From the NCBI GenBank assembly GCA_011051715.1, contig DRKP01000190.1, positions 1 through 43,019 on the forward strand: a DNA stretch of 43,019 nucleotides. The letters are read 5' to 3'. The stretch is from Sedimenticola thiotaurini (lineage in GTDB: Bacteria > Pseudomonadota > Gammaproteobacteria > Chromatiales > Chromatiaceae). The notes under the pieces are model-generated. The model had not been told where the DNA came from and ran no database searches. It worked only from the letters and a program-made list of their open reading frames with translations. Shown one piece after another: positions 7,903 to 42,983 of this stretch. The position numbers were made by a program, and so were the translations under genes. Within the stretch, counting starts at the first letter, position 1. Each line of letters begins with the position of its first letter.

Positions 7903-7906
7903 TAAT

Positions 7907-7925
7907 ACCAAGTAATGCACTTGGT
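7907..7925. promoter_or_regulatory. Probable IscR/Rrf2 operator
   Basis: Perfect dyad ACCAAGT-aatgc-ACTTGGT, embedded in TTAATACC...GGTAATTAA so that symmetry extends to about 7901-7931. The outer ATACC/GGTA(A)T resembles the ends of type 1 IscR sites (ATACCnGACT...AGTCnGGTAT), though the inner half-site bases differ. Its position between the -10 and the iscR start suggests autorepression. Binding by IscR itself is inferred. Confidence 0.6.
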
Positions 7926-7953
7926 AATTAAGAGCCAGAGAGAGACCTGAACT

Positions 7954-8433
7954 ATGAGACTTTCCACGAAAGGGCGGTACGCCGTCACCGCGATGCTGGA
8001 CCTGACATTGCAGGGCGGTGATGGTCCGGTGACCCTGGCAGAGATATCGGAGACGCAGGGTATTTCTCTCTCCTATCTGGAGCAGCTGTTCGCCTGCCTG
8101 CGCGCCAAGCAGCTGGTTCGTGGCGTGCGCGGCCCCGGTGGCGGGTATTACCTGGGGCGCCCGGCGGAGGAGATCTCCATCGCCGATATCATCTGTGCCG
8201 TGGACGAATGGGTCGAGTTCACCCGCTGTGGCGGAAACCGGGACTGTCGTGACGGCAAACGCTGCCTGACCCACAATCTGTGGGACGATCTGAGTAACGA
8301 GATCTTCAATTTCCTCAGCAATATCAACCTGGCCCAGCTGGTGGAGCGGGGTGGGTTGAAGGAGGGGGGCTGCATCCGGGAGAAGCAGAAGGAGGCCACC
8401 CTGCCGGGCGGCAGTGGCAGCCAGGCTGCCTGA
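7954..8433 (+). CDS. iscR: Iron-sulfur cluster regulator IscR (Rrf2 family)
   Basis: Transcription factor that senses cellular [2Fe-2S] status. The first 70 residues are the winged helix, nearly identical to E. coli IscR ([39 protein letters not shown]). The cluster ligands Cys92, Cys98 and Cys104 fall at exactly the E. coli positions, followed by His107 (CLTHNLW). The 159-residue length is normal. In E. coli and many relatives iscR heads iscSUA-hscBA-fdx; here no isc gene follows, only a convergent kinase gene 71 nt on, so the regulator is physically separated from any assembly operon. A dyad at 7907-7925 probably mediates autoregulation. It could belong to an IscR-like paralogue, but the ligand spacing argues for IscR proper. 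Confidence 0.93.
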
Positions 8434-39424: not shown

Positions 39425-39751
39425 GTGGCGGGTGACGCGGTGCCGGGTCGGATCGCCGCCGGCGTCCTGATCGGGGTCCTGGTCCTGATCCTGCTGATCC
39501 TCCAGTACCGTCTCTGGGTCGGGGAGGGCAGCCTCGCGGAGGTCCACGCCCTGCGCCAGCAGATCGAACAGCAGAGGGCGACCCTGGAGCGGCTGCGCCA
39601 GCGCAATCAGGCGTTGCAGGCGGAAGTGGAGGATCTGAAGGGGGGGCTGGAGGCGATCGAGGAGCGGGCCCGCAGCGAGCTGGGCATGATCCGGGAGGGT
39701 GAGATCTTCTACCAGGTGATCGAGGATGAGCCGGAGGCGGGGAAGCCGTGA
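39425..39751 (+). CDS. ftsB: Cell division protein FtsB
   Basis: Small bitopic divisome protein that works with FtsL and FtsQ. A single transmembrane helix (about residues 9-28, IAAGVLIGVLVLILLILQYRL) leads into a periplasmic coiled coil (QQIEQQRATLERLRQRNQAL) and the conserved GLEAIEERARSELGMIREGE, EIFYQV end. 108 residues from GTG 39425; GTG 39440 (VPGRIAAG) gives 103, the E. coli length, and is equally possible. The position between eno and ispD is the conserved one. Its stop overlaps the ispD GTG (GTGA). Confidence 0.94.
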   Translation: MAGDAVPGRIAAGVLIGVLVLILLILQYRLWVGEGSLAEVHALRQQIEQQRATLERLRQRNQALQAEVEDLKGGLEAIEERARSELGMIREGEIFYQVIEDEPEAGKP

Positions 39752-40479
39752 CCCGTCCTCTTTTCTGGGCCGTGATCCCGGCCGCGGGGGCGGGCCGGCG
39801 CATGGGCGGGCCGATCCCGAAACAGTACCTGCAGCTGCAGGGGCGCACCGTCCTCGATCACGCCATCGGCCGGCTGCTCTCCGTCGGCCGGATTCGGGGC
39901 GTCCGGGTGGCCCTCTCGTCGCAGGACGAACACTGGCAGGAGAGCCGTTTCGCGGCCGATGCCCGGGTCGTCCGGGTGGCCGGCGGGGTGGAGCGCTGCC
40001 ATTCGGTACGCAATGCCCTGCACGACCTTGCCACCGGACCGGCGGCCGCCACCGACTGGGTGCTGGTGCACGATGCAGCCCGCCCCTGCGTGCGGCCGGA
40101 GGACATCGAGCGGCTGATGGACCGGCTCGACGGTCACCCGGTGGGCGGGCTTCTGGCCAGTCCGATCCATGACACCGTCAAGCAGGTGGACGAGGGAAAC
40201 CGGGTGCGGGCGACCCTTCCCCGGGAGTCCCTCTGGCGTGCCTTCACCCCGCAGATGTTCCGCATCGGGGTCCTGCTCGATGCCCTGGAACAGGCCCTTT
40301 CGGCCGGCCGCCTGGTGACCGACGAGGCGGGCGCCATGGAACTCGCCGGTCTTGCCCCCCTGCTGGTGGAGGGCAGCCCGGACAACATCAAGATCACCCG
40401 CCCCGGGGACCTGGCGCTGGCCGGCTTCCTTCTCCGGCAGCAGGAGATTCAGGACACGACCGGGGCCGGGGAATCGTAG
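39748..40479 (+). CDS. ispD: 2-C-methyl-D-erythritol 4-phosphate cytidylyltransferase
   Basis: Third enzyme of the MEP isoprenoid pathway, joining MEP and CTP. The nucleotide-binding loop AAGAGRRMGGPIPKQYL is at about residues 11-27; HDAARPCV, the ATLPRESLWRAFTPQ segment and TDEAGAMEL are typical, as is the C-terminal GSPDNIKITRPGDLALA. 243 residues. The start is GTG 39748 overlapping the ftsB stop. ispF, usually next, is displaced by a gene on the opposite strand. Confidence 0.96.
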   Translation: MTRPLFWAVIPAAGAGRRMGGPIPKQYLQLQGRTVLDHAIGRLLSVGRIRGVRVALSSQDEHWQESRFAADARVVRVAGGVERCHSVRNALHDLATGPAAATDWVLVHDAARPCVRPEDIERLMDRLDGHPVGGLLASPIHDTVKQVDEGNRVRATLPRESLWRAFTPQMFRIGVLLDALEQALSAGRLVTDEAGAMELAGLAPLLVEGSPDNIKITRPGDLALAGFLLRQQEIQDTTGAGES

Positions 40480-40508: not shown

Positions 40509-40853
40509 TCAGTGGACGCTGCCGAACGACAGGTCCAGTGAATAGGCCGGCAGCGGGATGCCGGCGATCTTGCAGGCCTGGACCACCGGCCCGCGCGGGA
40601 ACAGGGTGTAGAGGTAGCGTTTTCCCCCCTGTTTCCTGAACTCGGCCACCATCGCCTTCAGCACCAGGCGGGCGCTGCAGCTGGTGCCGACCTGCTCGCA
40701 GTGGTTGCGCAGGAAGTGGATCACTTCCCAATGGGCATCCGTCAGTTCGATGTTCTCTTCGCGGGCCAGCTGTCGCGCCTGTTCCTCGGTCCATTCATGA
40801 AAACTCTCCGGCGGTGTGCTGCTCTCTGTCGCATAGGGGTCTGGTATCGGCAT
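40509..40853 (-). CDS. DsrC/TusE-family protein lacking the terminal cysteine (RspA-like)
   Basis: 114-residue member of the sulfur-carrier family of DsrC and Tus[50 protein letters not shown]. DsrC has two conserved C-terminal cysteines (CysB in QAC(R/K)IAG and the penultimate CysA 11 residues later); TusE keeps CysA. Here CysB is present (Cys94), but the CysA position is Ser105, and nine further residues follow (LDLSFGSVH). So it cannot carry persulfide in the TusE way or form the DsrC disulfide. Variants without CysA have been grouped separately (RspA, proposed regulatory role), to my recollection. Met at 40853 has GAGAGAG upstream. It faces ispD 29 nt away and is divergent from ispF. Confidence 0.87.
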
Positions 40854-41176
40854 GTCTCTCTCATCCTCTGGTTCCGGTTGACTGGTACGACCATCTCGAT
40901 CTGTTATTCTTGCTGCAGGGGTCCGGTTGCGTGGAACGTCCCCGCCACTGGACCGGAGGCGCCTTGTCATCGTTCTCACCGCCGGTCGCCGGTTTCCGCA
41001 TCCGCGGTGAAGCGGCTGACCGCGACGCTGTGCCGCTTCCCGTCAGGGCAGTGGAATCGTCGTCGTTCCGGGCTCCTGGTGGTCGCCGGGGAGGGTGGGG
41101 TGCACCGCTCCCTAACCAAAACCTAGACCATATTCCGGAAAATAACATACTTGATTGGTAGGGTATTTCCACGGGC
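40854..41176. other. Intergenic region between DsrC-like gene and ispF
   Basis: 323 nt with no gene. A weak inverted repeat (TCCGGT 40922-40927, ACCGGA 40952-40957) and an AT-rich stretch just ahead of ispF with TATTCCGGAAAATA are visible. TTGACT at 40878 and TATTCT at 40905 are too far apart (21 nt) for a good promoter. I see no strong promoter or known regulator site. Confidence 0.5.
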
Positions 41177-41659
41177 ATGAGGATAGGACAGGGATACGAC
41201 GCTCACCGGCTGGTCGCCGGCCGGCCGCTGGTGCTCGGCGGTGTGACCATTCCCCATGACCGGGGACTGGAGGCCCACTCCGATGGCGATGTGCTGATCC
41301 ATGCCCTGTGCGACGCCCTCCTGGGCGCCGCCGGTCTCGGTGACATCGGTCACCACTTCCCCGACAGCAGCAGCGAGTACGAGGCGATCGACAGCCGGAT
41401 CCTGTTGCGCCGGGTGCGGGAGCTGCTGAAGGAGACGGCCCTGCTGCCGGAAAACGTGGACGCCACCATCATCGCCCAGGCACCGAAGCTCGCCCCCTAT
41501 ATCGATACCATGCGCATCCGTATCGCCAGCGACCTGCACATCGACGCGGTTCGGGTCAATATCAAGGCCACCACCACCGAGGGCATGGGTTTCGCCGGTC
41601 GCGGCGAGGGCATCGCGGCCACTGCGGTGGTCCTGCTGCGGGAGACCGGTGACCGCTGA
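41177..41659 (+). CDS. ispF: 2-C-methyl-D-erythritol 2,4-cyclodiphosphate synthase
   Basis: Fifth enzyme of the MEP pathway. Zinc ligands Asp8, His10 and His42 (GQGYDAHRL, DVLIHALCDAL) and the GLGDIGHHFPDS loop are intact, and the C-terminal NIKATTTEGMGFAGRGEGIAA is the family signature. 160 residues, normal. ATG 41177. The last codons overlap truD by 11 nt. Confidence 0.97.
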   Translation: MRIGQGYDAHRLVAGRPLVLGGVTIPHDRGLEAHSDGDVLIHALCDALLGAAGLGDIGHHFPDSSSEYEAIDSRILLRRVRELLKETALLPENVDATIIAQAPKLAPYIDTMRIRIASDLHIDAVRVNIKATTTEGMGFAGRGEGIAATAVVLLRETGDR

Positions 41660-42797: not shown

Positions 42798-42829
42798 TAT
42801 TAACCCGGCAACCTAATATATCGTGTTCA

Positions 42830-42927
42830 GCCGTGCTGTGTGCGTTCGCGGCAAGGCGTCGAAACGCCGCTGTAGCACTTCTACAGCCAGTTTCGACAAC
42901 GCAGTCCGCGGGCGCGCACAGCACGGC
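42830..42927. repeat. 98-nt long-stem palindromic element downstream of truD
   Basis: Outer arms GCCGTGCTGTG (42830-42840) and CACAGCACGGC (42917-42927) are perfect complements. Inside, TCGAAAC pairs with GTTTCGA and CTGTAG with CTACAG around a 4-5 nt loop (CACTT), giving one long interrupted hairpin. No open frame or T-run. It looks like a large REP/MITE-type element. Confidence 0.7.
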
Positions 42928-42983
42928 CTATCATTTTATTTCAATAGGTTAGGAGCCTCAGGCATCTCCCCTCCCGGCGTTGC

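Follow-up and report, generated by a model that had tools for sequence, protein, structure and literature searches.

What a DsrC-family protein can do without the terminal catalytic cysteine is the question raised by a gene lying between ispD and ispF in a 43,019-nucleotide stretch of Sedimenticola thiotaurini DNA (contig DRKP01000190.1; hereafter the window). Translation bore out what the initial annotation had read at this locus, namely a retained Cys-94, a Ser-105 at the CysA position, nine residues beyond it, and a placement between ispD and ispF with 323 nt upstream; the strand, which that annotation had not given, is minus (Table 1). The 114-residue product scores 94.5 bits against Pfam DsrC (cut-off 24.9) and 94.2 bits against TIGR03342, the TusE/DsrC/DsvC family model (curated cut-off 53.5). 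Its score of 80 in the TusE equivalog model is far under the cut-off of 191. The two-Cys ending of DsrC (C-x10-C-x end) is absent: a Ser stands where CysA would be, and the chain runs on for nine more residues. The penultimate Cys of TusE is absent too. The start codon at 40853 agrees with most close orthologues, which have MP at the same place.

Table 1. Features of the window discussed in the text.
Feature	Position	Strand	Details	Basis
Near-perfect operator copy (AATACCAAGTAATGCACTTGGTAATTA)	7904..7930	plus	24 bp upstream of the IscR-like gene	Top match of the independent matrix
IscR-like Rrf2 regulator	7954..8433	plus	C-x5-C-x5-C-x2-H ligand pattern	Rrf2 superfamily over cut-off
ispD	39748..40479	plus		Homology and synteny
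DsrC-family CDS with FG tail	40509..40853	minus	114 aa; stop 40509-40511	Translation, Pfam, NCBIfam, orthologues
C-terminal extension LDLSFGSVH, residues 106-114	40512..40538	minus		D107 and S109-H114 invariant in 31 genes
Ser105 codon, CysA-equivalent position	40539..40541	minus		31 aligned genes: S 22, A 4, T 5
Cys94 codon, CysB-equivalent position	40572..40574	minus		Alignment: C in most relatives, S/A/L/M in others
Conserved promoter element	41118..41168	minus	Operator dyad plus -35/-10-like hexamers about 17 bp apart (hexamers inferred)	Model R1 match
Predicted IscR-type operator dyad AATACCCTACCAATCAAGTATGTTATT	41138..41168	minus	One of the training sites of R2	Model R2, E 7e-5 in window
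ispF	41177..41659	plus		Homology and synteny

A scan of public genomes returned 80 loci, about 55 of which end in DxSFGSVH or DxSFGSVM (50-82% identity). Carriers of this ending, the FG tail, include Sedimenticola, Thiodiazotropha, Solemya symbionts, Thiolapillus, Arenicellales, Sulfuricella and others. Asp-107, Phe-110, Gly-111 and Ser-112 are invariant in an alignment of 22 diverse members; across 31 full-length genes Asp-107 and the whole of Ser-109 to His-114 are unchanged, yet all of their codons vary synonymously. dN/dS in close pairs is mostly 0.03-0.10, indicating purifying selection. The CysA position is Ser, Ala or Thr in the 31 genes and Asn, Gly, Val or another residue in more distant tailed proteins, and three relatives (L058-L060) have a Cys there together with the tail. 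Most members keep Cys-94; many tailed proteins have Ser, Ala, Leu or Met in its place. Because CysA has been replaced by various residues in different lineages, it is the conserved SFGS tail that defines the family, and the particular Cys-to-Ser swap described in the initial annotation is not its defining event. In a tree computed from 83 core columns with the tail excluded, a 100/95 branch separates 56 tailed proteins plus L140 from the two-Cys DsrC and one-Cys TusE proteins. The invariance of the tail and the recovery of the clade without it thus identify the extension as an old, selected feature of one clade, which the loss of CysA accompanies.

A DsrC-like group that keeps CysA and has a short extension (NDC[VI]D...; L133, L135, L137-L139 and L144-L146) is placed by the tree close to the base of the tailed clade. 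A general C-terminal tag was rejected as an account of the tail since a search of the 3.39-Mb genome for its C-terminal DNA pattern gave a single occurrence. A phage or viral origin found no support either: a scan of viral contigs detected no relative, and a phage collection gave one match (44% identity, an unannotated record).

The gene runs towards ispD and away from ispF, convergent with the one and divergent from the other. Ten public loci outside the source genome share this site, as do several whole genomes from its lineage; other relatives have ispD next to ispF. The Thiodiazotropha copy adjoins polA, and others adjoin trmB/thiG or rpoH (names read from neighbouring translations). The suggested insertion into the MEP locus therefore describes one lineage and fails elsewhere in the clade, and it says nothing about the function of the protein. 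Conserved neighbours were also dropped as a guide to function, since a comparison of 53 tailed loci revealed recurrent neighbours only within lineages. Similar intergenic sequence occurs at about 42823-42935 of the window and about 10480-10610 of L005 (frames ...SFDNAVRGR...), apparently a dispersed repeat.

Distribution was surveyed in 369 genomes of the class, in which a genome was called tail-positive when a match reached the tail columns of the profile. dsrA is present in 44 of at least 49 tail-positive genomes and in 78 of the 320 others (Fisher p 7e-19, uncorrected for kinship and hence confounded). Among genomes with any DsrC-family match, the odds linking tail and dsrA are 4.3-fold (p 0.003), the tail calls being lower bounds. 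The source genome itself contains three further DsrC-family genes, which are a canonical two-Cys DsrC within a dsr operon (L001), a protein with the penultimate Cys only (L004) and one with neither Cys (L002), the last on a contig that also has dsrA in divergent orientation. The 114-residue protein is therefore an extra paralogue and not the sole one; the canonical dsrC that the initial annotation proposed to look for elsewhere in the genome is present, and its product is available for the sulfur-carrying job.

The upstream regions of FG-tail genes share a long element (motif log-likelihood 175 versus 56-69 in shuffled sets), composed of an inverted repeat near ATAACCnAGTAnnTACTnGGTTAT followed by -35/-10-like hexamers, which stays with the gene at unrelated sites. 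A scan with the sigma-70 consensus found no promoter. The upstream region had been taken as a sign of insertion; it does matter, though for its candidate IscR-type operator. Model R1, built from FG-tail promoters only and run over seven genomes, placed sites upstream of dsrA in four of them (G000, G003, G010 and G016) and upstream of the L004-type DsrC paralogue in G000, G007, G010 and G030. R1 sites also precede mrp, sodB, sufB, an IscA-type gene, moaA and rpoH (named from translations), and in three genomes weak matches immediately precede Rrf2 genes. Genome G000 has two dsrA copies (contigs C16, C139, C52 and C179), each broken at contig ends. Both of their 5' ends have an operator match upstream, one of them weak (E 1.3).

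The training set of a second model, R2, includes some R1-found sites, which makes its E-values, rough like all the motif E-values here, partly circular as well, and we therefore relied on sites outside that set. These comprise the copy at 7904-7930 of the window, a second dsrA copy, cysE-iscR, a rhodanese/siroheme-synthase pair, sufB and rpoH in G010, the L004-type gene in G003 and an iscR-like gene in G030, further suf and DsrC promoters being among them. Across 611 kb from 66 other FG-tail loci, every R2 match but one (L183) lies just upstream of the FG-tail gene (L035-L039, L046, L048 and L167, with L035, L036 and L167 outside the training set). Control loci around TusE/DsrC genes (181 kb) gave one match, which precedes the gene for a two-Cys DsrC in an organism from a sulfur cave. 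The R2 operator was not found before the gene in Sedimenticola selenatireducens/hydrogenitrophicus, in Thiolapillus-type organisms, in Sulfuricella or in most of the distant tail genes. The operator link is thus confined to the clade of the window and its near relatives, and IscR-type control would not be universal among tail genes. At L256 (about 1004, contig C63) the operator is flanked by a siroheme-synthase-type gene and a rhodanese gene that diverge from each other; DsrAB has siroheme as its cofactor.

Both strands of the 43-kb window were also searched with an independent matrix made from ten FG-tail promoters of other genomes. The palindrome at 7903-7930 ranked first at 26.7 bits, and the FG-tail gene's own promoter came next at 15.3. 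Given a maximum of 16.2 (mean 11.3) in 60 random sequences, the latter site does not by itself reach significance here; its spacing is 21 bp versus 19 bp in the training sites.

The product of the gene at 7954-8433 scores 191.8 bits against TIGR02010 (IscR), under the cut-off of 207.55, and is for this reason termed IscR-like; its ligand pattern is that of IscR. A second IscR-like gene, linked to isc, is located on contig C59. The operator precedes IscR-like genes, cysE-iscR, suf, mrp and sodB, the sharing expected of a regulon. The common dyad therefore points to an IscR-type Fe-S regulon that includes dsr genes, and the gene content suggests that either IscR-like protein may bind it. Literature searches pairing IscR with dsrA and RspA with DsrC retrieved no report of such regulation. 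In a pyrite study of A. vinosum, dsrA, Alvin_1508 and rpoH went down and iscR went up together (PMC11267869), a pattern that is no more than a lead.

The AlphaFold2 model consists of a DsrC core with a pLDDT of about 90 and a disordered tail (residues 105-114, under 50). Foldseek ranked highest the DsrC of A. vinosum, a DsrC-family protein of A. baumannii and DsrC in complex with DsrAB (1yx3, 7syb and 2v4j_C), which establishes the DsrC fold. Fur, PerR and LexA were matched too weakly (E 6-10) to serve as evidence for DNA binding. The initial annotation's proposal that the persulfide chemistry of DsrC and TusE is lost is supported, since a protein without CysA cannot work like either of them. 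The FG-tail protein is probably a regulator or binding partner in the sulfur-oxidation pathway rather than a sulfur carrier. As an explanation of the whole, we lean, by a modest degree, towards a non-sulfur-carrying, RspA-like partner or regulator in the Dsr system of reverse-Dsr sulfur oxidisers. Such a protein would have kept the DsrC fold and exchanged the persulfide-carrying Cys for a flexible but unvarying SFGSVH tail. With fold and tail together it may dock on DNA or on a partner from the Dsr or Tus proteins (DsrAB, DsrEFH), and docking would tune sulfur-oxidation capacity without carriage of sulfur, as proposed for RspA. Its gene has a promoter of its own, with a putative IscR-type operator that also serves the dsr operon, the second DsrC paralogue and genes of Fe-S assembly, and its synthesis would thus follow Fe-S status in step with that of the Dsr machinery. 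A more ambitious and tentative version, doubtful as a whole, has an IscR-type Fe-S regulator setting the level of dissimilatory sulfur oxidation by direct control of the dsr operon and two DsrC-family paralogues; the 114-residue protein would then be a dedicated non-catalytic adaptor, and its SFGSVH tail a peptide that binds a partner and thereby ties Dsr activity to the supply of Fe-S or siroheme.

Of the regulatory or decoy role put forward in the initial annotation, the regulatory or partner half fits the data, and no evidence was found for the decoy. A competitive decoy or brake would occupy the DsrC site on DsrAB/DsrEFH, its tail filling the channel for the DsrC arm, and block turnover when Fe-S status is poor. 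The retained fold, the lost reactive Cys, the conserved tail and the operator shared with the dsr operon are all compatible with this, but co-induction with dsrAB would be odd for a simple inhibitor, and we consider the idea unlikely. Slightly less probable still is a redox or metal sensor in which Cys-52 and Cys-59, with Cys-94, make up a disulfide or a metal site, the state of which the tail passes on to a partner: Cys-52 and Cys-59 occur in nearly all members of the window's clade, even where residue 94 is Ser or Ala, but they are absent or shifted in Sulfuricella-type and distant proteins that still have the tail. It is improbable that the protein carries sulfur after all, via Cys-94 or Cys-52/Cys-59 in place of CysA. 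The retention of Cys-94 in most members and the presence of both Cys and the tail in L058-L060 would suit a carrier; against it stand the many replacements of Cys-94 in tailed proteins and the finding that the persulfide of A. vinosum DsrC forms only at the penultimate Cys (PMC3397948). The initial annotation had named two ways in which it might be wrong, an error hiding the normal Cys and this being the only DsrC/TusE copy, and neither holds. A sequencing error or frameshift is ruled out, and a decaying pseudogene deserves practically no credence, by the same ending in about 55 independent loci under purifying selection.

For the RspA-like partner or regulator that we prefer, the tail motif separates a whole non-carrier clade, the genes of which can be re-annotated and would then stop counting as evidence for Dsr sulfur flow. 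The shared operator connects Fe-S homeostasis with dissimilatory sulfur oxidation in a concrete way that can be tested, in free-living bacteria and in symbionts of animals.

Among known systems, the FG-tail protein resembles A. vinosum DsrC (PDB 1yx3) in fold (Foldseek E 6.6e-5, 40% identity over 83 columns), and reverse-Dsr DsrC in family model, co-occurrence and an operator shared with the dsr operon. It differs from reverse-Dsr DsrC in having no CysA, in its nine-residue tail and in being encoded by a separate gene outside the dsr operon. With E. coli-type TusE it has in common the DsrC fold and a small single-domain build; TusE, however, needs the penultimate Cys that the FG-tail protein is without, and the score of the latter is far under the TusE equivalog cut-off. 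The nearest named concept would be RspA. Venceslau et al., in a 2014 review, are said to describe this 'regulatory sulfur-related protein' as a member of the DsrC superfamily in which the conserved Cys are not needed and for which a regulatory role is proposed. Set against RspA so defined, the FG-tail clade has no CysA and a variable CysB. A Cys-less paralogue of the L002 type lies at L006 (contig C16, 1-3690) in a gene group divergent from dsrA, with the operator in the divergent region. Other genomes have a similar dsrA-divergent arrangement, and the RspA first described could be an L002-type paralogue. Two further accounts list DsrC relatives without assigned roles, namely extra TusE/DsrC/DsvC genes of A. 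vinosum (Alvin_0028, 0345, 0732 and 1508; PMC3368242) and homologues without the two Cys in the S. velum symbiont (PMC4287430). Such genes belong with ours to one class of extra, non-operon DsrC relatives, and the passages on them make no mention of the tail, the clade or the operator (PMC3368242, PMC4287430). The tail-defined clade and the shared operator are the new contributions made here.
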